Below, piece after piece: positions 2,670 to 24,548 of a stretch of DNA of 30,818 nucleotides (the stretch's first letter is position 1; every line of letters starts with the position of its first letter). The notes under the pieces were generated by a model. That model saw only the letters and a list, made by a program, of their open reading frames with translations, did not search any database and was not told the DNA's origin. This stretch comes from a virus. The stretch is taken from the IMG/VR virus record IMGVR_UViG_3300025849_000144, positions 1 to 30,818 of that record, one strand, 5' to 3'. A program made the position numbers and the translations under genes.

Positions 2670-2748
2670 AAGTGCAACGTTTTGTGACACCCTATATATA
2701 TAGTAATTGCAAAAACGTTGCACTTACTTAATTCGCTACGCTCACTTT
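2670..2748 (+). repeat. Dispersed intergenic repeat, copy A
   Basis: Inverted arms: AAGTGCAACGTTTT from 2670 and its complement ending at 2725, around a loop with ACACCCTATATATA and TAGTAATT. Then follows TTAATTCGCTACGCTCACTTT to 2748, shared with copies B-D (which read CTCC instead of CTAC). After 2748 a T-rich stretch and TCCATTGGAT replace the second hairpin of the other copies. A partial echo, ACGTTTTGTGA, lies just before it at 2655. It sits in the 2514-2914 gap, which otherwise holds only the terminator at 2543 and the promoter at 2834. Confidence 0.85.
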
Positions 2749-2833
2749 GTTTTTCTTTTTTGTTGTGTTTCCATTGGATTTGTCAACCTGATAGCTGTTT
2801 TTGAAATTATTTTAATTTATTTATAAAAAAGAC

Positions 2834-2862
2834 TTGCAATGTGTTTGATATTTAGTTATATT
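2834..2862 (+). promoter_or_regulatory. sigma70-type promoter, AT-rich class
   Basis: TTGCAA (2834-2839), 17 bp, TATATT (2857-2862), then AATAAT. It leads the 148-residue gene at 2915. The same boxes and downstream bases recur at 16541-16569. Confidence 0.65.
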
Positions 2863-2867
2863 AATAA

Positions 2868-2884
2868 TGTACCAACGGGGTACA
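2868..2884 (+). promoter_or_regulatory. 5' leader stem-loop
   Basis: TGTACC (2868-2873) pairs with GGTACA (2879-2884), loop AACGG. It lies at the predicted start of the transcript from the promoter at 2834. Confidence 0.5.
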
Positions 2885-2914
2885 CAATATTAATTAATAA
2901 GAAGGTATACTATT

Positions 2915-3361
2915 ATGAACACTCAAATTACTAAAAACGAAAACACTGTTAGCTTTAAATATTTCAACCCTGTATCAAAATCGTTTGATGTATACTATAT
3001 CAATAAGGAAAGTTTGGCGGCCACGTTAGTAACAAAAGATGGTAATGTTATCATCGCAACAGATAATTCAATGAAGCAAGTTATTTATTTTCACGACAGA
3101 GAATTTGCTACAGAGTTCGCAGAGTCATTAATGATACTTGCAGACGCTTCACCTGTTATGGTTAAATCATTCTTGGACGGAATCTTTTTCATCCGCCACA
3201 ACTCGTGCCCTATGGTTATATGCAAACACCAAGGTGATTATTTTAATCTTATAATTACCATTAAGGGACACGATCAGAACTCAAAACACGGTTTGTTTGT
3301 GCAAAAAGTAAGAGTACAGACAGAGAAGCAAGCAGAATATTTAATCAACCAATTAACTTAA
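2915..3361 (+). CDS. Unknown 148-residue protein
   Basis: Not recognised. It appears alpha/beta, with no membrane segment; cysteines occur at SCPMVICKH near residue 105. The start is fixed by AAGGTATA 12 bases before the ATG. The first codons (ATGAACACTCAAA) and 13 bases before them match the 2069 gene with one mismatch, although the proteins differ afterwards. It is the first gene after repeat copy A and has its own promoter. Confidence 0.65.
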   Translation: MNTQITKNENTVSFKYFNPVSKSFDVYYINKESLAATLVTKDGNVIIATDNSMKQVIYFHDREFATEFAESLMILADASPVMVKSFLDGIFFIRHNSCPMVICKHQGDYFNLIITIKGHDQNSKHGLFVQKVRVQTEKQAEYLINQLT

Positions 3362-3371
3362 TTATTAAACA

Positions 3372-3388
3372 GGAGGGCTAAGCCCTCC
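3372..3388 (+). promoter_or_regulatory. Intergenic hairpin before the regulator gene
   Basis: GGAGGG (3372-3377) pairs with CCCTCC (3383-3388). No T-run follows. It may be a leader or processing structure like those at 2018 and 2868, though no convincing promoter precedes it. Confidence 0.4.
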
Positions 3389-3410
3389 ATAATCACAAAG
3401 GTAAAACAAA

Positions 3411-3659
3411 ATGAAAAACGCACTTAACCCAGTAGACCAACGAGCAGCCAACAACCTAAAGTCAATATGGCTACAACATAAAGAAAAAAGAAAAACAACT
3501 CAATCAGAGTTCGCGGAGTCAATTGGCATAAGTCAAAGCAAGTTTGCTTTGTACTTAAATGGCCACTACCCTATCTCTCTCAACAACCTCGTTTTCTTTG
3601 CTGACGCATTAGACTGCAACTGCTCAGATATTCGACCAGAAGTAAAGGATAAAAGATAA
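3411..3659 (+). CDS. Small Cro/CI-type helix-turn-helix regulator
   Basis: 82 residues. Residues about 28-76 fit an XRE helix-turn-helix domain: TQSEFAESIGISQSKFALYL (helices 2 and 3 with the GIS turn), then NGHYPISLNNLVFFADAL. It lacks any dimerisation or protease domain, so it looks Cro-sized rather than a full repressor. Such proteins bind operators and switch transcription of neighbouring promoters. AAAGGT ends about 7 bases before the ATG. Its stop overlaps the next start (TAATG), so it is coupled to a small membrane protein. The target sites are unknown. Confidence 0.8.
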   Translation: MKNALNPVDQRAANNLKSIWLQHKEKRKTTQSEFAESIGISQSKFALYLNGHYPISLNNLVFFADALDCNCSDIRPEVKDKR

Positions 3660-3892
3660 TGGAATACAGTTTATTATTATTTGTTTGGCCAGTGGCATTG
3701 ATATTAGCAATGTCATTAGGCGCAACCATTGGTATCGGAATCTACCACCTCATCCACCTCACCGCGTCAACGATAGTTGATTTAACTTGTAACGCATCAG
3801 GGGCGATTAAACAGGAGCGAGGCATACAAGACGTACTCAACTCAATCCAACGCCACAGGCGCAAGCGAGAGCGCGAGAAGGGGCGATCATAA
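3659..3892 (+). CDS. Small membrane protein coupled to the regulator
   Basis: 77 residues. A long hydrophobic N-terminal stretch (about residues 4-40, LLLFVWPVALILAMSLGATI then GIYHLIHL) gives one or two membrane passes. The C-terminal tail is strongly basic (RHRRKREREKGR) and should be cytoplasmic. The start overlaps the stop of the HTH gene by one base. Function not recognised. Confidence 0.6.
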   Translation: MEYSLLLFVWPVALILAMSLGATIGIGIYHLIHLTASTIVDLTCNASGAIKQERGIQDVLNSIQRHRRKREREKGRS

Positions 3893-3920
3893 TTCCCGAC
3901 TATAAAGAAAGAATCTACCG

Positions 3921-3942
3921 CAAGCCCTTGATTTAGGGCTTG
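3921..3942 (+). terminator. Hairpin with TTGATT in its loop
   Basis: CAAGCCC (3921-3927) pairs with GGGCTTG (3936-3942); the loop is TTGATTTA. No T-run follows. The loop could act as a -35 box, but the best -10 at 17 bp (ATAAAA, 3951-3956) is poor. It lies 33 bases before the next gene and may be terminator remnant, leader or both. Confidence 0.4.
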
Positions 3943-3974
3943 CTATAGCAATAAAAAACAAAAGGTATAAGATT

Positions 3975-4469
3975 ATGAACATATCCACAGAATTAAAAAA
4001 GCACGTATCAGGTGAGTTAAGTATGTACAATAACAACAATATAATAAATATTGTACGCAAAAGACTAACAAACAAAGCTAATGAAAAAATAAAACTAATG
4101 GCATTTAATGTTAATGCAGCAAGAAAGCACCCACTAGTATCAGAAGTTACTTACGGCGTGACTAGCTATCATGACGATGATGTCGAATACTCAACAACAA
4201 GAATTAAGGTTAAAGTTGAGTTAGATGAGTTTAGGACAATATACAATATAGAATGCACAGCCAACGTTTGCGATGAGCTGTGTAAGTATATGTCCGACAG
4301 ATTCGGGCGGGATGGGTTTATACTTTCTAATGAAATTGTAAGCTTAAATAGTAAAGATGAGGAAAAGAGACAGATGATAATTGATTTATTAAGTAGATTT
4401 GAAAAAACCCAAGAACAACAACCATCCACCACGCCCCGAACATTCGGGGCTTTTCATTACCTAAAATAA
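3975..4469 (+). CDS. Unknown 164-residue protein whose end overlaps a terminator
   Basis: Not recognised. The first half is basic and helical; the middle alternates charged beta strands (TTRIKVKVELDEF). AAGGTATA precedes the ATG as in several other early genes. The last codons, from TPRTFGAF onward, are written by the terminator hairpin at 4433-4454, so the tail of the protein is probably a by-product of that overlap. Confidence 0.65.
   Translation: MNISTELKKHVSGELSMYNNNNIINIVRKRLTNKANEKIKLMAFNVNAARKHPLVSEVTYGVTSYHDDDVEYSTTRIKVKVELDEFRTIYNIECTANVCDELCKYMSDRFGRDGFILSNEIVSLNSKDEEKRQMIIDLLSRFEKTQEQQPSTTPRTFGAFHYLK
4433..4454 (+). terminator. Terminator inside the 3' end of a coding region
   Basis: GCCCCGAA (4433-4440) pairs with TTCGGGGC (4443-4450), followed by TTTT. 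It lies within the last 13 codons of the preceding gene. Confidence 0.65.
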
Positions 4470-4482
4470 TTTAAAATAAAAC

Positions 4483-4511
4483 TTGTAAAAAAAAATAATA
4501 TTAAGTATTAT
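4483..4511 (+). promoter_or_regulatory. sigma70-type promoter, AT-rich class
   Basis: TTGTAA (4483-4488), 17 bp, TATTAT (4506-4511), then TAATAATAAG. A small hairpin (AGGG 4524-4527 with CCCT 4534-4537) follows near the transcript start. The whole leader is nearly repeated at 4869-4925. Confidence 0.65.
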
Positions 4512-4565
4512 TAATAATAAGTAAGGGGAAAGGCCCTGACCTAAAATAATATAAGGACTAATAAA

Positions 4566-4865
4566 ATGAAATTAATATCCATAAGAATCCCAGATAATCA
4601 CCACACACCTAACACGCTAGAATCTACCGCAGGAACAGCCCTAAGGCTAATCAACGGCAGGATGGCTAACAAAGTACTGATACTACTACCAAAGGCTACG
4701 CCGTTGCGTGAAGAGCTTTTTGAGCACAATGAAAAATCAAGCGTAAAAATAATTGAAGGTTACGAGAAAGCGGCGGCGGTAGATGTTGGCGAGTTCGATC
4801 ATGTTATATATGGCCCCGGCTCGTTTAAAAGTTTTTATGAAATAATTAAAAGTAATTTAAAATAA
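4566..4865 (+). CDS. Unknown 99-residue protein, single-gene unit
   Basis: Not recognised. Alternating hydrophobic and polar segments (KVLILLPKATPL, then VKIIEGYEKAAAV and VIYGPGS) suggest a small alpha/beta fold. ATAAGGA lies about 8 bases before the ATG. It has its own promoter (4483), and another nearly identical promoter/leader follows it, so it is transcribed as a short separate unit. Confidence 0.65.
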   Translation: MKLISIRIPDNHHTPNTLESTAGTALRLINGRMANKVLILLPKATPLREELFEHNEKSSVKIIEGYEKAAAVDVGEFDHVIYGPGSFKSFYEIIKSNLK

Positions 4866-4868
4866 AGC

Positions 4869-4897
4869 TTGTATTAATATCCGGTATTTAGTATTAT
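4869..4897 (+). promoter_or_regulatory. sigma70-type promoter, AT-rich class
   Basis: TTGTAT (4869-4874), 17 bp, TATTAT (4892-4897), then TAATAATAAGG and the same AGGGGAAAGGCCCT leader hairpin as the promoter at 4483. Confidence 0.65.
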
Positions 4898-4951
4898 TAA
4901 TAATAAGGAAGGGGAAAGGCCCTAACCTAAAATAAATAAGGTAAAAATAAG

Positions 4952-5422
4952 ATGAATAATTTAATAAACAAAATCCAAAGCCAACTAGGTAAAATCGGAA
5001 CAAGAGAAAATGTTTTCGACATGCTAACAGCTGAAGAGCTTAAGGTTATCTTTATTAATAAAGAAATTAATCCAAATAATGGTTTGGCTCTTGAAGATGA
5101 GTTTTTAAACTGTAACGGCCAACTACTTGAGCAAATGACTGACTCAAAAAATTGCGACACTGATTATTTTCATGAATTATTATTAGACCATTTAGAAGAT
5201 ATGGATAATTCTGAGATTATCAAAACATACACCGAACACATCAACGCAATTGAAGGTGGCGAAGTACTTAGCGATAAGATGTTTGATTTTGTAAACAAAG
5301 AAACAACACAAGAAACACTTGAAGCTTACAACCTATATAGAGAGGTAGAGGCGGCGTTAGATGCTGACGTAATGAAAGCTATTGAAAAATACCAAGATAA
5401 AGCACTAAACCTAATGGAATAA
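4952..5422 (+). CDS. Unknown acidic 156-residue protein
   Basis: Not recognised. It is acidic and predicted almost wholly helical (long runs such as EAYNLYREVEAALDADVMKA near the C-terminus). AAGGT lies about 9 bases before the ATG. It is the last gene before the packaging genes, with its own promoter (4869) and a hairpin after the stop. Confidence 0.65.
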   Translation: MNNLINKIQSQLGKIGTRENVFDMLTAEELKVIFINKEINPNNGLALEDEFLNCNGQLLEQMTDSKNCDTDYFHELLLDHLEDMDNSEIIKTYTEHINAIEGGEVLSDKMFDFVNKETTQETLEAYNLYREVEAALDADVMKAIEKYQDKALNLME

Positions 5423-5429
5423 AAACAAA

Positions 5430-5445
5430 AGCCCCGAAAGGGGCT
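5430..5445 (+). terminator. Hairpin at the end of the early region
   Basis: AGCCCC (5430-5435), loop GAAA, GGGGCT (5440-5445). The following bases are TTAAAAAA, so the T-run is minimal on the + strand. The same hairpin core occurs at 17605-17627 with a good T-run. Confidence 0.5.
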
Positions 5446-5467
5446 TAAAAAATAAATAAAATAAAGC

Positions 5468-5496
5468 TTGACATTAAGTTCACTTAATATTATTAT
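5468..5496 (+). promoter_or_regulatory. Near-consensus sigma70 promoter before the packaging operon
   Basis: TTGACA (5468-5473), 17 bp, TATTAT (5491-5496). The predicted start near 5503 is followed only about 25 bases later by a strong terminator, so the primary product would be a transcript of about 50 bases unless polymerase reads through. Confidence 0.7.
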
Positions 5497-5502
5497 ACTT
5501 AT

Positions 5503-5551
5503 AACATATAAATACCTTATACTTTTACCCCTTACTTGTAAGGGGTTTTTT
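5503..5551 (+). ncRNA. Possible short leader RNA between promoter and terminator
   Basis: Predicted only from the spacing of the promoter (5468-5496) and terminator (5527-5551). No coding sequence fits. It could be a small RNA or an attenuated leader of the late operon. Confidence 0.3.
5527..5551 (+). terminator. Rho-independent terminator upstream of the terminase genes
   Basis: CCCCTTAC (5528-5535) pairs with GTAAGGGG (5538-5545); TTTTTT follows. The stem is strong and the T-run good. Confidence 0.75.
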
Positions 5552-5552
5552 A

Positions 5553-5581
5553 TTGATTAAATTATTATAACGTGATAAAAT
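5553..5581 (+). promoter_or_regulatory. sigma70-type promoter for the packaging operon
   Basis: TTGATT (5553-5558), 17 bp, TAAAAT (5576-5581), 26 bp before the small terminase start. It lies just after the terminator, so the terminase genes need not depend on read-through from 5468. Confidence 0.5.
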
Positions 5582-5607
5582 AAAAGAAACACTTTGAGGT
5601 TATAAAG

Positions 5608-6084
5608 ATGACAAATAAAAAATCAACCGCAACAGACAAACCGAAGGTTACTAAAAGAGTAACAAAGGGCAGGCCAAAAGCTACTAAGAAGATAGCAAGA
5701 GGAAAGCCAGAACACAAACCAACCAAAGCAAAGCGCGACACGGTAGCTATGCACGCTATGGTAGGCACGCCGCAAGAAGATATAGCCAGAGTATTAGGCA
5801 TCGACCCCAAGACGCTCAGAAAGCATTACAGGGACGATCTAGACCTAGCAACAGCTTCAGCCAATGCCGACATTGGTGGAGCGTTATATAGGCAAGCAAT
5901 TGATGGCAATGTATCAGCACAAATATTTTGGCTCAAGACTCGCGCAGGCTTTAGAGAGAAGAGTGAAGTAGATTTGACAAGCTCAGACGGTTCAATGACG
6001 CCTACAGGCTTCGACATTAACTTTATAGAGGCCAAAGCGCCCGATGTGGAAGATGATGACGATAACGGCAAGCACGACTACTAA
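5608..6084 (+). CDS. terS: Terminase small subunit
   Basis: 158 residues. The N-terminal 45 residues are very Lys/Arg-rich. Then follows a helix-turn-helix (about residues 46-75, MVGTPQEDIARVLGIDPKTL) and GGALYRQAIDGNVSAQIFWLKTRAGF, typical of small terminase subunits (residues 90-120); the C-terminus is acidic. The small subunit recognises the packaging site on phage DNA and loads the large subunit. It lies 12 bases before the large subunit gene, the usual order. GAGG lies about 9 bases before the ATG. Confidence 0.85.
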   Translation: MTNKKSTATDKPKVTKRVTKGRPKATKKIARGKPEHKPTKAKRDTVAMHAMVGTPQEDIARVLGIDPKTLRKHYRDDLDLATASANADIGGALYRQAIDGNVSAQIFWLKTRAGFREKSEVDLTSSDGSMTPTGFDINFIEAKAPDVEDDDDNGKHDY

Positions 6085-6096
6085 CAGGGATTAATC

Positions 6097-7329
6097 ATGC
6101 CACGAAAGCAACTACAGATACCAGAATGGGGACGACCTTACTTCTCCCCTAAAAGGTACAAAGGCCTAAAGGGCGGAAGGGGATCGGGCAAGTCCCACTT
6201 CTTCGCCGAACTCGGTATCATACTGATGGTAAAACATCCAGAGCTTAAAATAGTTTCAGTTCGTGAGCACGCAGTATCTACCGCCGACTCAACCAAAACG
6301 CTATTCGTCGATAAGATTGACGAGCTTGGTGTATCTTCTATGTTTAGGATTACCGACAAAGGTATATTCAGAATAGGCGGAGTAGGTAAGATTATATTCA
6401 GAGGCCTGAAAGACCATACGGCTGGCGCTATCAAATCACTAGAAGGTTTTGATATAGCATGGGTGGAAGAGGCTCAGCAATTGAGCGAGCGAAGCTTAGA
6501 GGTATTGGAGCCAACGATCCGATCATCCTCCATCTTCCCCAACGCCGAAATTTGGTTTAGCTGGAACCCTTACGTTGAGAGCGACGCGGTTGATAAGTTT
6601 TTTGCGAATGGCGAGGGTGATGATGACTTTATGTTATCGCACGTTAACTTTGAAGATAATCCATTTTGTCCGGCTGCCCTTATCAAGTCAGCAATGAGAG
6701 CAAAGAAGTTTGACTTCGACAAGTATCTTAATATTTGGCTTGGCCACCATCTAACACGCACAGACGACCAAGTATTTGGCGGTAAATGGAGAGTGGATAC
6801 ATTAGAACCAAATAGAAGAACATGGGACGGCCCTTATCATGGCTTAGACTTTGGCTTCTCAAAAGACCCTATGGCCGCCGTAAAAGTATGGGTAACAAAT
6901 AACAATAAATTATACGTAGAAAAAGAGGCTGGCGGGGTTGGAGTTGAGTTAGATGCTACCGCTAAACACGTAAAGAAAAAGATACCGGAGTTTAACGACC
7001 AGTCAATACGCGCCGACTCTTCAGCGCCGCAATCAATAAGTTACTTGAAAAGACATGGCTTATCGCGTATAATAGGCGTAGACAAATGGAAAGGCTCGAT
7101 CGTTGATGGTATTAATTTCATGAAGGCGTTCGATGAGATAGTTGTACACCCTGACTGCACAGAAGTACAAGGCGAAATGGCTAACTACAGGTATAAAAGC
7201 AATAAGGGGGGCGATCCGCTTACTGATATAATTGACGCGGATAACCATTACATTGATGCAATAAGATACGCCTTATGTCCGCTAATCAAAACAGACGGAA
7301 AATTCACAGATTATGGTTCTTTACTTTAA
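6097..7329 (+). CDS. terL: Terminase large subunit (PBSX type)
   Basis: 410 residues, normal for the family. ATPase domain: Walker A GGRGSGKS (residues 26-33), Walker B IAWVEEA (120-126) with E124/E125, and the coupling motif FSWNP (154-158). Nuclease domain: D251 in GLDFGFSKDP, D307 in RADSSA, and D381/D387 in DADNHYIDAIRYA. The motor packs DNA into the prohead through the portal and cuts concatemers. It follows the small subunit and precedes the portal. All key residues are present, so it is probably active. Confidence 0.95.
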   Translation: MPRKQLQIPEWGRPYFSPKRYKGLKGGRGSGKSHFFAELGIILMVKHPELKIVSVREHAVSTADSTKTLFVDKIDELGVSSMFRITDKGIFRIGGVGKIIFRGLKDHTAGAIKSLEGFDIAWVEEAQQLSERSLEVLEPTIRSSSIFPNAEIWFSWNPYVESDAVDKFFANGEGDDDFMLSHVNFEDNPFCPAALIKSAMRAKKFDFDKYLNIWLGHHLTRTDDQVFGGKWRVDTLEPNRRTWDGPYHGLDFGFSKDPMAAVKVWVTNNNKLYVEKEAGGVGVELDATAKHVKKKIPEFNDQSIRADSSAPQSISYLKRHGLSRIIGVDKWKGSIVDGINFMKAFDEIVVHPDCTEVQGEMANYRYKSNKGGDPLTDIIDADNHYIDAIRYALCPLIKTDGKFTDYGSLL

Positions 7330-7340
7330 GGAAGTAAAAC

Positions 7341-8567
7341 ATGAAATTTATAGACGGCATTCAAAGCCTATTTAGTAACCTTACAAACAGACGCAACGCG
7401 CTAGCATCTAACGCAGTTGCGCAACAACCACGCCTAGACGATTCAGCTGCTAGGGCTATTTATAAAACTGGCATAGGCTCAAAAATTGTTAGACTTAAGG
7501 CGGGATACTCGCTAGACGATACAATACAGTTCGAGCGCACGCACGACATGGAAGAGTTCAACACCTACCTCGCCCCTACCTTTAAAGATGCAGCGAAATA
7601 CATGGTAGGATTTGGGCGCGGTATTATCGTTATCATGCCAGAAGGAACGGACGACTTGTCTAAACCCATGCCACTAAAAGCCAAGCTTGATATCAAGACG
7701 ACAAGACTAAAAGCATTCAGCGGCGATATGGTTAGTGTAACGTCGTACGACACAAACTTACTTAGTAACAGATTCTTAAAGCCTAATGTTTATAGTGTTC
7801 GCGGTGAAAGTATCCACCACACACGCGTGTTAGATGTTACGTATGTTAAGCCGAGCGATCACGAATTACCTGAATACAAATACGGCGGCATGAGTGAGTT
7901 TGAAATTATCCTGCCTCAACTTATCGCCGATAGCGTTGTTCAACGCGCTACGCCTTCTATTTTGGAAAAGAGTTCAACGCTATTCTATAAGATAAGCGGA
8001 TTTAAAGAAACGATAGCGCAAGGCCGAGAGTCAGAGATATTGTCTTACTTTGGTACGCTTGAAGATGCTCGAAATATTTACGGAGCTGGCGTTATAGACA
8101 GCGAGGATGATGTGGAGGTTGTGCAACAAAACCTATCTAATCTTTCAGAAACTGATAACATTACGCTAAGGCGTTTAGCTATGGTTACTGGCATACCATT
8201 GGCTATACTTATTGGCGAGAACGTAAAAGGCCTTAATAGTACTGGCGATAATGAGATGCGAGTATTCCAAGATACGATAGAGACGCTTCAGAGTGATTAC
8301 TTACTAGAGCCTCTACAAAAGCTTTGTAGGCTTTTTGGTATTGATGGAGTACAATTTAAAGATAATCAAGGCGAAACACCTCTTAATCGCATAGAGTACG
8401 AATCAAAGGTTATTGATAACGCCGTTAAGCTTTATAGTATGCAGCAAGACCATGCTTTATACTTAGAAGAGAAGGGCGTTATACCTAAAGATGATTTTGC
8501 ATCAATGTTTGACGACATCGACCACGACAAAGAAACCGATAAAGGTGACGAAGATGGCGAAGTTTAA
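7341..8567 (+). CDS. Portal protein (DUF1073 type)
   Basis: 408 residues. The pattern DSAARAIYKTGIGSKIVRL near residue 33, then AAKYMVGFGRGIIVIM, the strands around SVRGESIHHTRVLDV, and GIPLAILIGENVKGLNSTGDNE near residue 280 fit DUF1073 portal proteins. Portals form the 12-fold ring at one vertex through which DNA passes. It starts 11 bases after terL; its last 14 bases overlap the minor head protein. The C-terminal tail is acidic (DDIDHDKETDKGDEDG). Confidence 0.88.
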   Translation: MKFIDGIQSLFSNLTNRRNALASNAVAQQPRLDDSAARAIYKTGIGSKIVRLKAGYSLDDTIQFERTHDMEEFNTYLAPTFKDAAKYMVGFGRGIIVIMPEGTDDLSKPMPLKAKLDIKTTRLKAFSGDMVSVTSYDTNLLSNRFLKPNVYSVRGESIHHTRVLDVTYVKPSDHELPEYKYGGMSEFEIILPQLIADSVVQRATPSILEKSSTLFYKISGFKETIAQGRESEILSYFGTLEDARNIYGAGVIDSEDDVEVVQQNLSNLSETDNITLRRLAMVTGIPLAILIGENVKGLNSTGDNEMRVFQDTIETLQSDYLLEPLQKLCRLFGIDGVQFKDNQGETPLNRIEYESKVIDNAVKLYSMQQDHALYLEEKGVIPKDDFASMFDDIDHDKETDKGDEDGEV

Positions 8568-9442: not shown

Positions 9443-9617
9443 AAGTGCAACGTTTTGTGACACCCTATATATACAATATTTACAAAAACGTTGCACTTAC
9501 TTAATTCGCTCCGCTCACTTTCTTTTATTTTTTATTATAAGCTATCCATTAAATCAACATCGTTACTAAACCAATGGATAAAACACTAGACAAAATAAAA
9601 CAAGCCCCGCGCAGCGG
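9443..9617 (+). repeat. Dispersed intergenic repeat, copy B (full length)
   Basis: First hairpin: AAGTGCAACGTTTT from 9443, complementary arm ending at 9498, loop with ACACCCTATATATACAATATT. Then TTAATTCGCTCCGCTCACTT and a T-rich tract. Second hairpin: TATCCATT (9543-9550) with AATGGATA (9573-9580). End: AAGCCCCGCGCAGCGG (9602-9617). Copy C is almost identical over the whole length. Nothing in it is coding. It fills most of the 9421-9706 gap. Confidence 0.9.
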
Positions 9618-9653
9618 ATACTCTTGCAAAATAACAGTCATAGTGTTAAACTG

Positions 9654-9682
9654 TTGACTATGGCAAAAAAAACATATATAAT
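9654..9682 (+). promoter_or_regulatory. Strong sigma70 promoter for the head operon
   Basis: TTGACT (9654-9659), 17 bp, TATAAT (9677-9682). It lies 37 bp after repeat copy B and 24 bp before the protease/scaffold start. Confidence 0.75.
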
Positions 9683-9706: not shown

Positions 9707-10858
9707 ATGATGCACTTAAAGTTTAAAGACTTAGCAACCTATGACCCTAGCGCTAAAACGGCTATATCTGTCCGTGATGGCGTTTTAGAGTATTTGGGTG
9801 CTGAGATTGGCATGACGCCAGCTGACAAAGTGTTCACCATCTACCGCAGCCCTGCGACCATTGCTAACGCAGCAATGAAAATGCAAGGCATCGCTGTAAC
9901 AAATGAGCATATCGACTTAAGCAGCCCTGCCCCTAAAGACGGCGGAACTGTTACGCAATCAGAGATGATTGATATTGTCGAAAACGGCGTGGCAACTATT
10001 GCGATCAAAAATAAAGTAAAACTATCTGACGAGCTAAAAGAAACCGCGCAAGAAAAACGCGAACTTTCGTTAGGTTATTTTGCTGACCTAGTCGAGCATG
10101 AAGTTTATGACTTCGAGCAAAAAGACATTGTACCGCACCATCTAGCAATTGTCCCAGCTGGGCGTTGTGGTGATATGTGTAGTTTTATTGATAGAAAACC
10201 AAATGTATCGGAGCAAGATATGAAATTTAAATTTATTGACGAAGACGGCAAAATTGATTTGCAAACGATTGTCGAGGTGATGACAAAATTACCTGAAGCA
10301 ATTCGTAAAGTTCCTGTTGAGGAAGTTGCAAAAATCATGCCAATGTTACAAGAATTAATTGCAGCGTCTGAAGGTGTTATGCCTGAAGAAGACGGCGACA
10401 ATGAATCACCTGCTGAAGAAGCGGTTGAAGAAGTTGTTGAAGAAGAAGCGGCTGAAGAGCAACTTGACGAAGAAGCTGATAAAGAAGAAATTACTGACGA
10501 AGAAGCTGGCGAAGATTCTGACGAAGACAAGCAGGGCATGAAAGATGCAGCTATTGACTTCAAGGATACTCAAGAGTTTGCTGATGCAGTTAAAGCGGCG
10601 GTAGATGCTGAGACGGGTAAGATTGTTTCTGTTATCGAGAAGGCTCGCGACTTCGTTGATGCTGGTTATGTGTTTGCTGATAAAGACGCTAACCAAATTA
10701 TGCGTGATGCTATCGCTACGCAATCAAAAGAATCTTTTGCAGATGCTGAATTGCCAGTGGCGTTCAAGATGCTAAAGAAAAGCGTTGACAAATATATTAC
10801 ATTTGGCGACAAAAAAGTTGATACAGGCCTTGACAGCTTGTATGATAAAGAGCTATAA
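9707..10858 (+). CDS. Prohead protease / scaffold fusion (DUF2213)
   Basis: 383 residues. Residues 1-165 match DUF2213: RSPATIANAAMKMQGIAVTNEHID, then KRELSLGYFAD, then IVPHHLAIVPAGRCG. H68 and S121 are candidates for the His/Ser pair of the HK97-like prohead protease fold; this is inferred by pattern. Residues 223-275 form a very Glu/Asp-rich low-complexity stretch and the rest is helical, like a scaffold. So one protein probably both shapes and matures the head. Start: GAGGA lies 5-9 bases before the first of two ATGs (9707 and 9710). It leads the head operon after promoter 9654. Confidence 0.8.
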   Translation: MMHLKFKDLATYDPSAKTAISVRDGVLEYLGAEIGMTPADKVFTIYRSPATIANAAMKMQGIAVTNEHIDLSSPAPKDGGTVTQSEMIDIVENGVATIAIKNKVKLSDELKETAQEKRELSLGYFADLVEHEVYDFEQKDIVPHHLAIVPAGRCGDMCSFIDRKPNVSEQDMKFKFIDEDGKIDLQTIVEVMTKLPEAIRKVPVEEVAKIMPMLQELIAASEGVMPEEDGDNESPAEEAVEEVVEEEAAEEQLDEEADKEEITDEEAGEDSDEDKQGMKDAAIDFKDTQEFADAVKAAVDAETGKIVSVIEKARDFVDAGYVFADKDANQIMRDAIATQSKESFADAELPVAFKMLKKSVDKYITFGDKKVDTGLDSLYDKEL

Positions 10859-12372: not shown

Positions 12373-12380
12373 TAATTTTA

Positions 12381-12410
12381 GAAAGTCCTTGACAGGGCTT
12401 TCTTTATTTA
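12381..12410 (+). terminator. Terminator whose loop is a perfect -35 box
   Basis: GAAAGTCC (12381-12388) pairs with GGGCTTTC (12395-12402) with one G-T pair; the six-base loop is exactly TTGACA. The tail is TTTATTTA. It stops transcription after the capsid gene. Confidence 0.65.
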
Positions 12411-12417
12411 CTATAAT
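12389..12417 (+). promoter_or_regulatory. Perfect-consensus sigma70 promoter nested in a terminator
   Basis: TTGACA (12389-12394), 17 bp, TATAAT (12412-12417): both boxes and the spacing are consensus. The -35 box is the loop of the hairpin at 12381-12402. Confidence 0.75.
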
Positions 12418-16616: not shown

Positions 16617-17600
16617 ATGAGTATTTTAAAAAAGAAACAAAAGACAAATGAAGAACTGAAAAACGAAGCGTTGAGCTACAGTGTTGATGAGCTTAAGGCA
16701 AAAGCGCAAGGTGCAAAAAAAATGTCTGCATTGAAAGGCGGACTTATTATAGCGCTATCATTGTGTTCATTATTATTTTCTTACACTCAATTCCAAGAAG
16801 CTATGGTCTGTAAGGGTATTTGCGCGGTAGATGTTAATGAAAGTATGATTAAAACAGGCTGGGCAAAAGGTGAGCAACAAAAAGAAGAAACAGTTTGGGT
16901 GGTTGACTATAAAGGAAACTACACTCAACAAGAATCTATTTTATTTAGAATGAAACTGGATAAAATCGCAGCTATATCAAAAACAGGTGATGGCCTTATT
17001 ATCAATATCGAAAGTAACGGCGGTGATGCTATTGCATGCGCTAACGATTACGATCGAGTAGTTAAGATGCGAACAATGCATGGCCTTAAGGTTTCAGCAG
17101 TTGTTGATAGAGCAGCACACTCTTGCGGATATTATCTAGCATCTGCCGCAACATCTATCTACGCTCAGAAAGGCGCAAGCGTTGGTAACATTGGATCGGC
17201 TATGACAATGATGACAAACCCTATTCAAGCACTGGTTAAAAAAGTAACAGGCGCAGAAGTTATTGTTATTGGCTCTACTCGTGCAAAAGAAATATTTGCT
17301 GGATCACCACTTAAGACAAAGGAAGATCACGCCATTGTCAAAAAGTACGTAGACGCAGGTGCTAAAAACTTCTTTATGGACGTTATTAAAGGACGAGCTG
17401 GACGCATTAACCCTAAAGATTATCCTACTGTGTTTAGTGCATACCCATTCTCGGCACGTCATGCAAAACAACTAGGCCTTATCGATGGTTTCGCAAGTAT
17501 CAGCGAAATACTTCAAGGCTATCACGCCAACGGATACACAATCAAACGCATCACTATAAACGATGTAGCAAAAGCAAGTAAGCAAGTATTTGTAGGATAA
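16617..17600 (+). CDS. Membrane-anchored S49 (SppA/SohB-like) peptidase
   Basis: 327 residues. A charged N-terminal part (1-38), one membrane segment (about 39-57, LKGGLIIALSLCSLLFSY), a linker, then an S49 serine peptidase domain: GLIINIESNGGDA (126-138), SCGYYLASAA (169-178, candidate nucleophile S169), GASVGNIGSAM (186-196), and K224 in RAKEIFAGSPL as candidate general base. The pair fits the Ser/Lys dyad of SohB-type enzymes. Host SppA degrades signal peptides in the membrane; phage S49 enzymes usually belong to the head module and lack an anchor. Here the gene lies after the tail tube, with its own early-style promoter and terminators on both sides, so it looks like an accessory (moron) gene acting at the inner membrane. 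Confidence 0.85.
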   Translation: MSILKKKQKTNEELKNEALSYSVDELKAKAQGAKKMSALKGGLIIALSLCSLLFSYTQFQEAMVCKGICAVDVNESMIKTGWAKGEQQKEETVWVVDYKGNYTQQESILFRMKLDKIAAISKTGDGLIINIESNGGDAIACANDYDRVVKMRTMHGLKVSAVVDRAAHSCGYYLASAATSIYAQKGASVGNIGSAMTMMTNPIQALVKKVTGAEVIVIGSTRAKEIFAGSPLKTKEDHAIVKKYVDAGAKNFFMDVIKGRAGRINPKDYPTVFSAYPFSARHAKQLGLIDGFASISEILQGYHANGYTIKRITINDVAKASKQVFVG

Positions 17601-17604
17601 TACC

Positions 17605-17627
17605 AAAGCCCCGAAAGGGGCTTTTTT
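17605..17627 (+). terminator. Terminator shared by two convergent genes
   Basis: AAAGCCCC (17605-17612), loop GAAA, GGGGCTTT (17617-17624), T-run to 17627. Strong on the + strand. On the - strand the T-run is only three bases; the stop codon of the minus gene lies in the A-tract. Confidence 0.8.
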
Positions 17628-17838
17628 AATGCCTTACTATTTTATTTGTATAATCTAACACATCCCCTTCAGTCCAATCATGTCTATTTATTTTAATGGT
17701 ACCTTCAATGGCATGCTGTAGCCTTCCTATTTTGAGAACAATGCATGTAGCAATAATACCCTTACTATCCTCTAAAATACATTCATACGCTTCTGTGTGG
17801 TTGATGGGGTCGATTCTTGTCTTGCTTGCTGTTATCAT
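17626..17838 (-). CDS. Orphan 70-residue protein on the minus strand
   Basis: The only supported minus-strand gene. The start at 17838 (MITASK) is chosen because AGAGGAAAG lies just before it on the minus strand; an open extension to 17943 would run into repeat copy C and lacks a binding site. The protein is small, beta-rich and charged (TEAYECILEDSKGIIATCIVLKIGRL, then EGTIKINRHDWTEGDVLDYT), with two cysteines and no membrane segment. Not recognised. It has its own promoter at 17862-17890 and converges on the S49 gene. Confidence 0.65.
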   Translation of the reverse strand: MITASKTRIDPINHTEAYECILEDSKGIIATCIVLKIGRLQHAIEGTIKINRHDWTEGDVLDYTNKIVRH

Positions 17839-17861
17839 TTTCTTTCCTCTGTTTTTTGTTA

Positions 17862-17890
17862 AGTATATCACAAAATGCGGTGGATGTGAA
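17862..17890 (-). promoter_or_regulatory. Minus-strand sigma70 promoter for the orphan gene
   Basis: On the minus strand: TTCACA (17890-17885), 17 bp, TATACT (17867-17862), each one base from consensus. The predicted transcript start is about 17 bases before the start codon at 17838. Confidence 0.55.
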
Positions 17891-17891
17891 G

Positions 17892-18064
17892 GTGCAACGT
17901 TTTGTGACACCCTATATATACAATATTTACAAAAACGTTGCACTTACTTAATTCGCTCCGCTCACTTTCTTTTATTTTTTATTATAAGCTATCCATTAAA
18001 TCAATAACGTCACTCAACCAATGGATAAAACATTAAACAAAATAAAACAAGCCCCGCGCAGCGG
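17892..18064 (+). repeat. Dispersed intergenic repeat, copy C (full length)
   Basis: First hairpin: GTGCAACGTTTT (17892-17903) with complementary arm ending at 17943 and the same loop as copy B. Then TTAATTCGCTCCGCTCACTT and the T-rich tract. Second hairpin: TATCCATT (17990-17997) with AATGGATA (18020-18027). End: AAGCCCCGCGCAGCGG (to 18064). It fills the gap between the minus gene and the promoter at 18067. Confidence 0.9.
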
Positions 18065-18066
18065 TA

Positions 18067-18095
18067 TTGACTAAATTATGATCATGTAGTATAAT
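18067..18095 (+). promoter_or_regulatory. Strong sigma70 promoter after repeat copy C
   Basis: TTGACT (18067-18072), 17 bp, TATAAT (18090-18095), starting two bases after the repeat. It leads the two genes from 18133. Confidence 0.75.
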
Positions 18096-18132: not shown

Positions 18133-18513
18133 ATGGCTGATAAAAACTTTTTTAAAACTGAAAGCGGAAGCAGAGCTTTGCCTGTAAATGCTGACGGAAC
18201 TTTTGAGACAGATGTTATTAATTACGATGAAGGATCACTATCTGAGGTTTACTTTGAATTCTATTCAGACGAATCTCTATCTAACCCAGTAACTCCGACA
18301 GGAGGTACAATATCAGTTGAAGCTAGTCCATTAGGTAACGTTTACCTATCGCCAGCAGAGCCAACGCCTGTGAACGCCGTAGATGTATCTTCTACATCAA
18401 CCGCAACATACACGCCTCCAACTATAGATGGTCTTGTCACAAAGGCTAGGGTTATTGTTAGTGGCATAACTGGCGCATCTTACATGCGTGCTGTTTTATT
18501 TAATCACGATTAA
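18133..18513 (+). CDS. Unknown 126-residue beta-rich protein, probably virion
   Basis: Not recognised. Thr/Ser/Val-rich and beta-rich throughout (SEVYFEFYSDE, GTISVEASPLG, ATYTPPTIDG, KARVIVSGITGASYMRAVLF), resembling a single sandwich domain. AAGGA lies 11 bases before the ATG. It begins an operon with the 409-residue protein ten bases downstream. Position among tail genes suggests a surface or accessory virion protein; this is inference. Confidence 0.6.
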   Translation: MADKNFFKTESGSRALPVNADGTFETDVINYDEGSLSEVYFEFYSDESLSNPVTPTGGTISVEASPLGNVYLSPAEPTPVNAVDVSSTSTATYTPPTIDGLVTKARVIVSGITGASYMRAVLFNHD

Positions 18514-18522
18514 GGAGATGTC

Positions 18523-19752: not shown

Positions 19753-19757
19753 ATATA

Positions 19758-19786
19758 TTGCACAATACGTGCGTATGTAGTATAAT
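19758..19786 (+). promoter_or_regulatory. sigma70 promoter of the tail chaperone operon
   Basis: TTGCAC (19758-19763), 17 bp, TATAAT (19781-19786). The start of transcription near 19793 falls within the left half of the hairpin at 19784-19817. Confidence 0.7.
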
Positions 19787-19817
19787 CACCTTTGTAGACA
19801 AATTTACAATGGTGATT
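19784..19817 (+). promoter_or_regulatory. Hairpin covering the ribosome binding site of the chaperone gene
   Basis: AATCACC (19784-19790) pairs with GGTGATT (19811-19817); after one mismatch, TTGTA (19792-19796) pairs with TACAA (19805-19809). The right arm holds the binding site GGTGA of the ATG at 19822. Messages read through from upstream would contain both arms; messages from the local promoter would lack most of the left arm. Confidence 0.55.
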
Positions 19818-19821
19818 TTTT

Positions 19822-20181
19822 ATGAAAGATAATAAACAAGCATTAAATATGATTAAGTCCGTTTATGAAGACGGCGTAGCAGAAATTAACGGAAACTCAT
19901 ACGAGTTTGCAGGAAAGTTTAATCACAAAGAGCGTCGCAAAGTTTTTGCATACTACACAAAGATTGCTCCCATGCTAGAAAAGGGTGATTTTGACTTCTT
20001 AGATTCTCCAAAATTTGACGATATCGAAGACCTAATTAGTCAAAAAGTTTTATTTGACGGACAGCAAATTAGTAAAATCAAAGACCACTGGGATAATCAC
20101 GCTGATGATTACGTGGTATTTATCACAACGGCCATTGCGGTTGTAAGCTACCCTTTTTTGAAAGGCAGCCTTACAGGTTAA
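19822..20181 (+). CDS. Tail assembly chaperone (short form)
   Basis: 119 residues: helical and charged (NHKERRKVFAYYTKIAPML, ISKIKDHWDNHADDYVVFIT), with no membrane role implied. It lies directly before the tape measure gene, where tail assembly chaperones (lambda gpG/gpGT type) are encoded; these keep the tape measure soluble during tail assembly and are not in the final virion. The end of the gene carries a slippery heptamer, C CCT TTT (20151-20157), and the -1 frame stays open afterwards. Confidence 0.75.
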   Translation: MKDNKQALNMIKSVYEDGVAEINGNSYEFAGKFNHKERRKVFAYYTKIAPMLEKGDFDFLDSPKFDDIEDLISQKVLFDGQQISKIKDHWDNHADDYVVFITTAIAVVSYPFLKGSLTG

Positions 20182-20402
20182 ATGGTATACCTAGTTTAAG
20201 GGGTGGCGATGACGTCATCTCTTTTACCAATATATCTGACTACATGTTCCAAGTTTTGCTGCTGGTTAAAAAAGGTTATGGAACAATACAAGACATTGAG
20301 GCGTTAGATACTCCACAGTTTTTAGATGCATTAGAGTATGAAAATATCTTATCTGACATAGAATCTCACGAACAAAAAGAAGCAGAATCAAAGGCGAAAT
20401 AA
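19822..20402 (+). CDS. Tail assembly chaperone, -1 frameshift long form
   Basis: Ribosomes slipping back one base on C CCT TTT (20151-20157) after residue F112 would continue in the -1 frame from 20157 to the stop at 20400-20402, adding 81 residues for a total of 193. The extension reads FERQPYRLNGIPSLRGGDD and then YMFQVLLLVKKGYGTIQDIEALDTPQ, and ends ESKAK. It has no stop and no good independent ribosome binding site; the first ATG inside it (about 20244) would give only 53 residues. The arrangement equals lambda G/GT, conserved in many tailed phages just before the tape measure gene. The extension ends two bases before the tape measure start. Confidence 0.75.
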
Positions 20403-20404
20403 AA

Positions 20405-21796
20405 ATGGCGACAGTAACAGAATTAGTAACCAAATTTAGCTTTGTTGGAAGCCTAAACCCTCTAAAGAATTTCAGAAGCGGATTGGCTGGAGCTACAATA
20501 GGCACGGCAAAAATGGCTGCTGGATTGGCCGTGGCTGCTGGCTCGGCTTTAGCTTTTGGTAATGCAATAGCTCAATCACTAAAGCCATTAAACGTACTAT
20601 CAAAGCAAAGTGGCGTAACAGTAGGAAATATACAAAAGCTAGAGTTTGCAGCGCTATCCACAGGAGCTAACATTGGATCACTTGAAATGGCATTGGAAAG
20701 CTTATCCCAGCAAGTAAACCAAACAGCATTAACAGGGCAGGGTACTTTAGTAGAAAGGTTAGGTCTTGGTGCTGAAGATTTAGAGAACTCTGAAACAGCA
20801 TTATTCGGAGCTATACGAGCAATGAATGATATGGGATTTGATAGAAGACAGCGACTTGCTATAGCTGAAGAATTAGGCCTAGATGCATCACTAATAGGCT
20901 TGCTTGAATCAAGCAACCATGAACTTCAAAGAATGTCAAAAATAGCTGATGATATAGGATTTATAACGCCTGAGCAAAGCAAGGCGGTAGAAGAGTATAC
21001 AAACTTAACCGCTACATTAGGCCTTAGTTTTAAGCGACTAGGTGAGCAGCTGGGAGTATCACTACTTCCTGCACTAAATGAAACGGCAGAATCTATGTTT
21101 AGTATTGTTAGATCTGTTGCTCCAGCTCTTAAGCGTGCTTTTGGTGTTATAAGCTTCGGTATCGTTACGGCTACTGATTTTATAAAAGATCATATAGGAT
21201 TTTTAACAGTACTTGGTGGAACCCTTCTTGCGGTTACGGCTGGCCCAATATTACTTGCAGCGGCGCTAGCATTAATACCAGTAGCTCTTAAGGCTATTTT
21301 AATAGCTCCATTCCTGCTTGTTCTACAAGACCTTCACGTTGCATTTAATGACGGCAAATCGGTTATTGGTGACTGGGTAGAAAAAATGACTGGCATCGAC
21401 CTCACCAAGGCTGGATCGGCAATAAAAGATCTGGCTGGAGATATTAGAAATATTTTAGGCGATGCTTTTGATTATGTTATAGAAAAAATTGAAGGATTAT
21501 TCGGCTGGATAGGAAAGCTAGGTAAAATTATAGGTGAAGACTTGGCAGAAAGTAGAATATCAGACTTGCAATCAACAGGCCAACTACCTACAGGTAATGA
21601 AGAGTTCTTGACATACAGAGCAAGAAAGGCTTTAGAATCTAGAAACTCTGGCGGCGGATCTAACACTACAAACAATGTTACTGTTGAAGTCAATACGAAT
21701 AAAGAAAGCGTCGCAGACGCAGCAGTTGGTGGCGTATACAAAAGATACGGCTCCGGTACATTAGAAGCTGAGCAAAACAGAAGGAGCGGTAGATAA
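20405..21796 (+). CDS. Tape measure protein (short)
   Basis: 463 residues. Typical features: hydrophobic Ala/Gly-rich segments at about 36-56 and 264-308, long helices between them (GNIQKLEFAALSTGANIGSLEMALESLSQQ), and a Gly/Asn/Thr-rich tail (GGGSNTTNNVTVEVNTN near 423). The protein sets tail length and helps eject DNA through the membrane. By the usual rule of about 0.15 nm per residue the tail tube would be near 70 nm, which is short for a myovirus. It follows the chaperones by two bases and overlaps the next gene by one (TAATG). Confidence 0.88.
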   Translation: MATVTELVTKFSFVGSLNPLKNFRSGLAGATIGTAKMAAGLAVAAGSALAFGNAIAQSLKPLNVLSKQSGVTVGNIQKLEFAALSTGANIGSLEMALESLSQQVNQTALTGQGTLVERLGLGAEDLENSETALFGAIRAMNDMGFDRRQRLAIAEELGLDASLIGLLESSNHELQRMSKIADDIGFITPEQSKAVEEYTNLTATLGLSFKRLGEQLGVSLLPALNETAESMFSIVRSVAPALKRAFGVISFGIVTATDFIKDHIGFLTVLGGTLLAVTAGPILLAAALALIPVALKAILIAPFLLVLQDLHVAFNDGKSVIGDWVEKMTGIDLTKAGSAIKDLAGDIRNILGDAFDYVIEKIEGLFGWIGKLGKIIGEDLAESRISDLQSTGQLPTGNEEFLTYRARKALESRNSGGGSNTTNNVTVEVNTNKESVADAAVGGVYKRYGSGTLEAEQNRRSGR

Positions 21797-22599
21797 TGCC
21801 ATCAAAACTAGAAAACTACAGAGACTCGGTAAGAAAGGCCCTTAGCGGTACTAATGAAAAAAGCACGCAACTAGGCATAGGTGGGTTTACCACCCTTGCT
21901 AGAGTTTCTGAGACCGTACAAAGAACAGCACAAGTACCAGCAATAACGCTAGAAGATGGAACGGTTATAAGTGATCACATAATTCTCGATCCATTAACCA
22001 TAAACATATCTGGCGATGTATCTGATATTTATATAGAAAAAAACAAAAACATAGGCCTTATTGGAGATATATCTGACAAACTTAGCGTGGTAGATCAGTA
22101 TCTTCCACAACGAACACAGTCGCAAATAAGCAAGGCAGAAGGTATTATAAACGACGTAAATAATAAGGCCTTGAGAGTTGTTAATGAGATAGATAGGATT
22201 GATGGATTTTTCTCAGACCTTATGTCTAATTCAAACCCTGACACTAAAAATAGAGAAAAATTTGTTAATCAAATGAAGGCGTTTTACGAGGGAAGAAGAC
22301 CTATATCAATAGACATGCCAGACAACCAAAAACTGGATAATATGGTTATAACGTCACTATCATTTGAGTATGATAATCAAGGTGACAGTACTGGTTTTTC
22401 AATAGAAGCCACACAAGTAACATTCGTAAAAACACAAGCGTCTGATATAGCACTAGCTCCAAAACAAGAAGAATCTGACGCAGTATCTGAAAATGAAGAT
22501 AAAGGCCCACAAGAGCCTCAAGAAGCAGCAGAAAGCGTACTTGGAGGTGTGCTTGATGAGTATGGAATTAAATTCATTAAAAGAACAGAAGGGGCTTAA
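21796..22599 (+). CDS. Dit-like tail/baseplate protein
   Basis: 267 residues. The segment VPAITLEDGTVISDHIILDPLTINISGDVSDIYI (47-80) is the pattern of Dit-like N-terminal domains (DGTVISDHI ... PLTINISG). A helical middle is followed by RRPISIDMPDNQKLDNMVITSLSFEYDNQGDSTGFSIEAT and an acidic, Glu/Gln-rich tail. Dit-like proteins form the ring joining tube and hub. Position just after the tape measure gene fits. The Glu-rich C-terminus looks like a flexible extension. Confidence 0.68.
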   Translation: MPSKLENYRDSVRKALSGTNEKSTQLGIGGFTTLARVSETVQRTAQVPAITLEDGTVISDHIILDPLTINISGDVSDIYIEKNKNIGLIGDISDKLSVVDQYLPQRTQSQISKAEGIINDVNNKALRVVNEIDRIDGFFSDLMSNSNPDTKNREKFVNQMKAFYEGRRPISIDMPDNQKLDNMVITSLSFEYDNQGDSTGFSIEATQVTFVKTQASDIALAPKQEESDAVSENEDKGPQEPQEAAESVLGGVLDEYGIKFIKRTEGA

Positions 22600-22600
22600 G

Positions 22601-22936
22601 ATGATTAGAGAAGTAAGAAACATAACAAGCGAAGCGCATCAAACACACTCGCTATTTTATAATGACGTACAAGCTGAACTTGAATTAAGATTTATTCCAC
22701 AAGTTGGGCAGTGGTTTATTAGCTGCACTATTGGAGACAAAGCTATAAAAAATGCAAAGCTATCAGTTGGTGTGCTTCATATGGTATCAAGAAACATGCC
22801 AATTGATTTTATAGTGGTAGATAACAGCGGTGAAGATTTAGATCCGTTTTTATCTACAGATTTTACTAGCGGTAGGTGTACTTTACTGATGCTTGATGAT
22901 GAATCTATGACAGACCTTAGGGGTGTAGAGGTGTAA
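22601..22936 (+). CDS. Baseplate plug-family protein
   Basis: 111 residues from the ATG at 22601; AAGGGG lies 7-13 bases before it, and the stop of the Dit-like gene is one base upstream. An open frame extends back to 22493 inside the previous gene but has no binding site. The pattern (HSLFYNDVQAELELRFIPQV, QWFISCTIGDKAIKNAKLSVGVLHM, FIVVDNSGEDLDPFLSTDF, GRCTLLMLDD) fits small phage baseplate plug proteins that lie between Dit-like and hub genes. Confidence 0.65.
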   Translation: MIREVRNITSEAHQTHSLFYNDVQAELELRFIPQVGQWFISCTIGDKAIKNAKLSVGVLHMVSRNMPIDFIVVDNSGEDLDPFLSTDFTSGRCTLLMLDDESMTDLRGVEV

Positions 22937-22937
22937 T

Positions 22938-23804
22938 ATGGAAAATAAAAGATTTTTAAGAAGCTACAAGCTAACAGTAACTACAGAAACAGGCTCTGTT
23001 ATTATTAGCGATCCTTTAAAAATATCTTTCTCTTGCAATAAATCGATATCGGGCGGGCTTAATAGCTCAACAATTAATATTTATAATATTGCACAAAAGT
23101 CAAGAGAATTAATATCAAAAGAAAGATTTCAGACAGACAAAAGAATTAAAGTAACTTTAGATGTTGGTTATGGTGACAGATCGGAAACTATATTTAAAGG
23201 AACTGTGCTTAGCGCTATTAGCTTAAGAGATGGAGCTGACATAGTAACTGAAATTGAAGCTACTGACGGCGGAGAGGCTCTTGAGAAGTCATTTGTAACT
23301 AAGGTTATAGACGCCGGGGTTGATAAGGTTGAAGAAATTGTTGACGAACTAACAGGTGTTGCGAAAGGGAAGGTTACCGCCAAAGTCGTTAACACAAGGC
23401 CAATCGTTATTGTTGGAAACGCCGTTGAAGAATTAAGGAAGGCATCAAGAGAAAACGGCTATATATTTTATATAGGTGAAGAAAAATGCCATGTTATAAA
23501 ATCAGACGAGGTTATATTTGAGCAAGTTCAAATAGTAAAGGCATCTACCGGATTAATAAACACGCCAACAAGAGAAGGTTTAAATGTTGTATTCAATACG
23601 GTTCTAAACCCAGCTATTAAGGTTGGTGGAAAAGTTAAGGTAGAGAGCGAGGTTGATAAGAGAGATGCTAAAGAAGGTGGCGTAAATGGCATTTATGTTG
23701 TAACATCTATGAATATACAGGGCGATAATTACGGCGACTTATGGAATCAAACTATAACAGCAAAGCCCTTTGGTGTAAATATCGGAGATGGAAATGCAAA
23801 TTAA
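22938..23804 (+). CDS. Baseplate hub protein
   Basis: 288 residues. The start YKLTVTTETGSVIISDPLKISFSCNKSISGGLNSSTINIYNI and VGYGDRSETIFKGTVLSA are typical of hub proteins of the gpD/gp27-like group (DPL-I-F ... N-S-I-I-N). The second half (VEELRKASRENGYIFYI, then GINGIY-like GVNGIYVVTSMNIQGD) matches the second barrel domain. The hub trimer sits between tube and spike. It overlaps the spike gene by a few codons. Confidence 0.78.
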   Translation: MENKRFLRSYKLTVTTETGSVIISDPLKISFSCNKSISGGLNSSTINIYNIAQKSRELISKERFQTDKRIKVTLDVGYGDRSETIFKGTVLSAISLRDGADIVTEIEATDGGEALEKSFVTKVIDAGVDKVEEIVDELTGVAKGKVTAKVVNTRPIVIVGNAVEELRKASRENGYIFYIGEEKCHVIKSDEVIFEQVQIVKASTGLINTPTREGLNVVFNTVLNPAIKVGGKVKVESEVDKRDAKEGGVNGIYVVTSMNIQGDNYGDLWNQTITAKPFGVNIGDGNAN

Positions 23805-24402
23805 AAATAGAAGTGATTTATTTGATTTAATGAGAGGTGAGATAGATTTTGCATTATCAAACCTACATACATCCACTATAGCAAGGGTGACAAAAGTAAA
23901 CGAAAAGACAATAAACTGCAAAGTTATAATACCTCTTGATGTTGATGGTGAGCTTGTTCAGATGCCAGAGTTTATTAAGGTTCCACCAATATTTATGCAA
24001 GGCGGTGGATCGTACACCGCCCACCCAATAAAGCCGGGAGATTATTGCTTGCTTGTATTTACTGAGCGTTGTTTTGATGCTTGGTACGGTGGTAGTGATG
24101 ATGTGGAGAAGCCAGACTTTAGGATGCATGATTACTCAGACGGATTTGCTATTGTTGGTGTTAATCCTCTAGAGGCTGCAATATCTATACCAGAAGTTAT
24201 AACTAATATTGGTGACAGCTATCATGAAGGAGATCACGAGCATAAAGGAGACTTGGAGCAGGATGGTAGTCAAAAGATAACAGGAAGTAACGACGCCAAG
24301 GATTATAAGGTTGATGGGGAAGATGGAGCAACGGGCGTTTTCTTAGACTTAAACGGAAAATCAGTAACCGTAAAGAGTGGTATAATAACAAGTATAGTGT
24401 AA
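23794..24402 (+). CDS. Gp138-type membrane-piercing spike
   Basis: 202 residues from the ATG at 23794, which has GGAG six bases upstream; the in-frame ATG at 23788 is adjoining that GGAG and is less likely. The N-terminal domain (IARVTKVNEKTINCKVIIPLDVDGELV, then PVY-like PPIFMQGGGSYTAHPIKPGDYCLLVFTERCFDAWYGG) is the Gp138 OB-type fold. The C-terminal part is repetitive and His/Asp-rich (YHEGDHEHKGDLEQDG, DGATGVFLDLNGKSVTVKSG), like the beta-helical needle of spikes that bind a metal at the tip. It pierces the outer membrane. Confidence 0.88.
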   Translation: MQIKNRSDLFDLMRGEIDFALSNLHTSTIARVTKVNEKTINCKVIIPLDVDGELVQMPEFIKVPPIFMQGGGSYTAHPIKPGDYCLLVFTERCFDAWYGGSDDVEKPDFRMHDYSDGFAIVGVNPLEAAISIPEVITNIGDSYHEGDHEHKGDLEQDGSQKITGSNDAKDYKVDGEDGATGVFLDLNGKSVTVKSGIITSIV

Positions 24403-24408
24403 AAAGTA

Positions 24409-24548
24409 AAGTGCAACGTTTTGTGACACCCTTATATAATAGTAATTACAAAAACGTTGCACTTACTTAATTCGCTCCGCTCACTTTCTTTTATTTTTTA
24501 TTATAAGCTATCCATTTAAAACAAACCTCAACCTCTCACTAATGGATA
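24409..24548 (+). repeat. Dispersed intergenic repeat, copy D
   Basis: First hairpin: AAGTGCAACGTTTT from 24409, complementary arm ending at 24464; loop with ACACCCTTATATAATAGTAATT, closest to copy A. Then TTAATTCGCTCCGCTCACTT and the T-rich tract as in B and C. Second hairpin: TATCCATT (24509-24516) with AATGGATA (24541-24548). The GC-rich end of B and C is replaced by a true terminator at 24571. Confidence 0.88.

Follow-up and report, generated by a model that had tools for sequence, protein, structure and literature searches.

The stoperators of mycobacteriophages are short, asymmetric and numerous. The dispersed element described here resembles them in having several intergenic copies, all in one orientation, and in being a possible repressor target, and it differs from them in consisting of four long palindromic modules. 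As outlined in two published accounts, the promoter early stem-loop (PeSL) cassettes of T4-type phages are short non-coding units of a stem-loop and a promoter located at gene borders (PMC4503421, PMC5348500); the same accounts, with attribution to Arbiol 2010 and Comeau 2014, describe cassettes that occur repeatedly in a single genome and are associated with module shuffling. Compared with the PeSL cassettes as these accounts portray them, our element likewise joins a stem-loop and a promoter in one intergenic unit (the promoter of copy D being weak by consensus), but its core consists of a 56-bp palindrome with a conserved tail, its promoters are sigma-70-like and differ among copies instead of representing a shared phage early promoter, and it is tied to head, tail and baseplate operons. 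Furthermore, the phage that carries it has terminase, portal and capsid proteins matching small myoviruses and is not T4-type. Since the phage is not T4-type and an early promoter is not shared, the element is not a member of PeSL, although by analogy it would work like those cassettes. A third precedent is galETKM, where a stem-loop and a Rho-dependent terminator lie behind the last gene, galM (PMC9927376). In copies B and D, similarly, the last stop codon is succeeded first by a hairpin and then by a C-rich, G-poor tract; in contrast to galETKM, regular C spacing was not found at the C/G peaks here, the sequence is strictly conserved, and a promoter follows.

The phage and its record

The window, that is the whole stretch of DNA analysed, is an IMG/VR virus record of 30.8 kb whose completeness is unstated, so that further copies of the element may exist. 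It represents a contractile-tailed phage with an identified sheath gene. The terminase, portal and capsid resemble those of small myoviruses, Vibrio phages VBM1 and XM1 among them; for the capsid protein, identity to the counterparts in VBM1, XM1, 1.052.A and similar Vibrio phages is 39-43%. Apart from the element, the window encodes a Holliday-junction-resolvase-like gene (1109-1624; PHROG 843) and contains a 108-nt promoter and leader duplicated with 81% identity before two adjacent genes (4463-4570 and 4849-4956), a second duplicated gene start (2056 and 2902), and a consensus promoter, TTGACA-17-TATAAT, that overlaps an intrinsic-terminator-like hairpin 3' of the capsid gene (12380-12417). 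A moron-like unit located among the tail genes (16617-17838) is composed of an S49 peptidase gene and a terminator, followed by a small minus-strand gene; the head protease, at 9707, is separate from this S49 peptidase.

Architecture and conservation of the element

Four near-copies of the element (A to D, 79-175 bases, Table 1) were found in one orientation, each between two gene blocks. Common to all four is a 79-nt core comprised of a 56-bp quasi-palindrome and a 23-nt tail, ACTTAATTCGCTCCGCTCACTTT, which is nearly invariant, with a single base differing in A. The arms of the quasi-palindrome are 14 bp long, perfect in A, B and D and with one mismatch in C (AGGTGC); their centres are 42 bp apart, the centre of the palindrome is TA-rich and symmetric, and none of the copies departs from the length of 56 bp. 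Copies B, C and D run on past the core to about 140-175 nt, through a T-rich stretch and then a second inverted repeat (TATCCATT/AATGGATA) that is missing from A. By BLAST, the similarity between B and C reaches positions 9617 and 18064 with 97% identity, while copy D shows 94% over about 115 nt and copy A 91% over 91 nt. The left edge of the element is sharp, with upstream 20-nt blocks agreeing at only 3-8 of 20 positions; on the right, the homology between B and C stops within a GC-rich mini-hairpin, beyond which the promoters differ.

Table 1. Positions of the element copies and associated features in the window, and of repeats found in related phages
Feature	Position	Strand	Remarks
Copy A	2670..2748	+	Palindrome 2670-2725 and 23-nt tail; no second inverted repeat
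Copy B	9443..9617	+	Core 9443-9521; second inverted repeat 9543-9550/9573-9580; GC-rich mini-hairpin about 9606-9618
Copy C	17890..18064	+	Core 17890-17968; second inverted repeat 17990-17997/18020-18027
Copy D	24409..24548	+	Core 24409-24487; second inverted repeat 24509-24516/24541-24548, loop diverged, C-rich, G-free
Promoter 3' of A	2834..2862	+	Sigma-70-like, TTGCAA-17-TATATT
Promoter 3' of B	9654..9682	+	Sigma-70-like, TTGACT-17-TATAAT, 11/12 consensus bases
Promoter 3' of C	18067..18095	+	Sigma-70-like, TTGACT-17-TATAAT, 11/12 consensus bases
Promoter-like site 3' of D	24596..24624	+	TTGCTT-17-TATAAT, first hexamer weak, below scan threshold; read from sequence
Intrinsic terminator upstream of A	2543..2577	+	Terminator scan
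Intrinsic terminator upstream of C	17604..17626	+	AAAGCCCC-GAAA-GGGGCTTTTTT; read from sequence, absent from scan list
Intrinsic terminator behind D	24571..24593	+	AGCAGC-GATA-GCTGCT-T7
Cro/CI-type HTH protein, 82 aa	3411..3659	+	In the operon downstream of copy A; may read the core
DUF7265-family gene (gene 18133)	18133..18513	+	Behind copy C
Relatives' own repeats	L020 3379/12019; L040 6798/7488/12167; L043 2151/2331/4404; L056 641/12229		One copy at the head-morphogenesis/protease junction

An earlier sequence-only reading had reported four copies in the same orientation, a common quasi-palindrome and a second hairpin in three of them, all of which our analysis reproduced, with the core of copy C now starting at 17890. 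It had also called the copies non-coding. This holds for copy C as well, which is crossed by ORFs on both strands (17696-18007, plus; 17626-17943, minus), because no family matches the plus-strand ORF and the minus-strand gene (17838-17626) starts outside the element, with its own ATG and ribosome site at 17838. Finally, it had recognised no described element with this sequence, and our searches agree: BLASTN of the element against phages, plasmids and E. coli gave no match, and scans of IMG/VR with an exact 21-mer, the tail and a loose palindrome pattern gave none or chance matches only. Host genomes were covered by the loose palindrome pattern only, which produced five matches, all unrelated, in 84,980 species genomes. 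A known RNA family is not supported, as Rfam returned no family at gathering score and the sub-threshold microRNA models, on a hairpin only, were taken as chance.

Chance was excluded as the origin of the repetition, with 128 repeated 30-mers observed versus 0 in Markov simulations; three perfect 14-bp inverted repeats within 40 nt were observed versus 0 in 30 simulations. Variation among the cores is concentrated in the spacer (10 of 17 columns, versus 2 of 62 columns elsewhere; Fisher p=7e-7), and the 56-bp length is constant although the spacer has diverged. This concentration favours sequence-specific recognition of the core, as does the conservation of the unpaired GTGACACCC and the tail, which base pairing alone does not explain. 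The likeness of the copies could stem from recent, or very recent, duplication alone.

Gene context

The operon that follows copy A includes a Cro/CI-type HTH gene, copy B stands before the protease and capsid block, copy C before a DUF7265 module and the tape-measure block, and copy D before the baseplate block; B and D begin 22 and 6 nt, respectively, after stop codons. The location at operon borders, already proposed from the sequence, was thereby confirmed, each copy lying between gene blocks, oriented along transcription, and being followed by a promoter-like site of host type. Downstream of all four copies a sigma-70-like promoter was found, whose first hexamer is 136-184 bp from the palindrome centre; these promoters differ in sequence from one another, and the homology between copies ends before them. 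The variable distance makes direct activation of the promoters unlikely, and the element is not a universal late-gene switch, since it is absent from other promoters, including that of the terminase/portal operon near 5468. Ending the upstream operon is not its sole role either, as A and C are already behind intrinsic terminators and C also adjoins the minus-strand gene. The promoters behind every copy, the terminators before A and C, and the apparent insertion of D and C relative to other phages (see below) had not been part of the earlier description. In A and B, both strands of the palindrome carry GTGCAA-17-TATATA, and one may speculate about a two-sided promoter there, although these hexamers are weak. 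A plain intrinsic terminator was considered for the core and is not supported, because its hairpin encloses 28 nt between 14-bp arms, is not followed by a U run and is absent from the terminator list.

Comparison with related phages

About 90 related loci were gathered by alignment, and no relatives above 55% portal identity were found. The element was found neither in 30 related records by BLAST nor in 26 by a covariance model. In most relatives read (L011, L073, L075 and L103), the genes at the D site overlap or leave almost no gap, versus a gap of 249 nt in the window, and the tube gene is separated from gene 19822 by short gaps (about 10-100 nt) in the relatives read, versus 3.3 kb in the window, where extra units and copy C intervene. 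This comparison suggests that copies D and C are inserted cassettes. In L047 and L054 the sequence as read out places the homologue of gene 18133 immediately 3' of the head-morphogenesis gene, and tblastn positions in L046, L053 and L067 are consistent with the same location; in the window, this junction holds copy B, and gene 18133 is instead found behind copy C. The gene 18133 module may have moved between the B-type and C sites, in a direction that we infer.

At the head-morphogenesis junction several relatives display, by eye, only promoter-like sequence, and in four relative lineages this B-type (head-morphogenesis/protease) junction is occupied by repeated DNA that is particular to each lineage and unrelated to our element (Table 1), promoter/operator-like in L020, L040 and L056 and a stem-loop in L043/L045. 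The idea that these repeats precede HTH repressor genes was not supported, as no HTH domain was found behind them. In L021, a palindrome of about 34 nt (88%) lies over a promoter at the head-morphogenesis junction (3010-3043) and is operator-like. Absence of conservation between related phages, which the sequence-only reading had named as evidence against it, is thus found for the sequence, the core being present in none of the relatives tested, but not for the arrangement, as some relatives have unrelated repeats at the same junction.

Function and origin of the element

We read the element as an operon-border regulatory cassette duplicated within the phage, with a function of the core that we infer; we give this reading roughly an even chance. 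Rather than being a transposon, the element is probably an on/off cassette for borders that has been duplicated. Its copies would have spread via duplication and homologous recombination, each providing a ready-made border at which the previous unit would be stopped and the next one started, and they may serve as homology patches for the shuffling of gene modules. Recognition of the core would depend on its sequence, with a phage regulator that binds both arms as DNA, their centres about four helical turns apart, as the most likely reader. The first candidate is the Cro/CI-type HTH protein behind copy A, whose link to the core is one of proximity only. The C-rich tract and the second hairpin may limit read-through, together with the intrinsic terminator in the case of D.

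Several features of the core, namely its perfect 14-bp arms, its fixed length, its TA-rich symmetric centre and its sequence-specific conservation outside the spacer, would also be expected of a purely DNA operator of a prophage-type repressor, as with dispersed repressor sites, with the cassette-like spread being incidental, and the operon downstream of copy A, with its HTH gene, points in the same direction. We consider this rather unlikely: the promoters would lie 136-184 bp downstream of such an operator, conservation is as strong in the non-palindromic 23-nt tail as in the arms, isolated half-sites elsewhere do not occur beyond chance, and the temperate lifestyle of this phage is only putative. 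Somewhat less probable still is an RNA element, in which the upstream mRNA would have its 3' end protected by the hairpin after the stop codon, and Rho-dependent termination would take place at the C-rich, G-poor tract. The close distance of B and D to stop codons, the plus-strand folding z-scores of the hairpins (-3.5 to -5.2), the loop of D, which though diverged remains C-rich and G-free, and the order of hairpin and C-rich tract at galM (PMC9927376) are consistent with it. Moreover, when 78-nt windows of the plus strand are ranked by C/G, the top three places go to the tails of D, C and B, in each of which C exceeds G; yet the regular spacing of C that RhoTermPredict requires (PMC6407284) was not found at these peaks, and the tail of copy A is not C-rich. 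The existing terminators before A and C also argue against an RNA element, as does the invariance of the unpaired half of the loop and of the tail, which goes beyond what pairing explains.

The MITE-like option of the sequence-only reading, taken here as mobilisation by a transposase of the host or of a satellite, is not supported and appears very improbable. It would account for the sharp left edge, the repeated insertion at intergenic sites and the lack of coding capacity, but the outer ends (flanks inspected by eye) have neither target-site duplications nor consistent terminal repeats, only 5-nt AAGTG/CACTT ends, the orientation is the same in 4/4 copies, the right-hand extent differs among copies, and plasmids, E. 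coli, the IMG/VR patterns and the species genomes, the last by the loose palindrome, provided no related match. The earlier interpretation is supported in part: its other two options, a binding site and a structured RNA, both retain some probability. Plasmid-prophages have dispersed partition sites, and a few palindromic copies distributed through the genome could resemble a centromere-like, packaging or single-strand initiation site. No ParA/ParB-type gene was found among the ORFs scanned of a record that may be a fragment, and the strict tie to promoters and operon borders makes such a site the least probable explanation, with hardly any weight.

Returning to the duplicated border cassette, one may go further and propose an undescribed element family in which one phage protein would read the palindrome and tail at operon borders and coordinate termination and re-initiation across the structural blocks, the element doubling as a recombination patch; this extension we regard as doubtful. 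If the border-cassette reading is right, small myoviruses outside the T4 group would also make gene borders from copyable regulatory cassettes, the junction behind the head-morphogenesis gene would have been used for border cassettes independently in several lineages, and module shuffling in small myoviruses would become testable at defined sequence patches.
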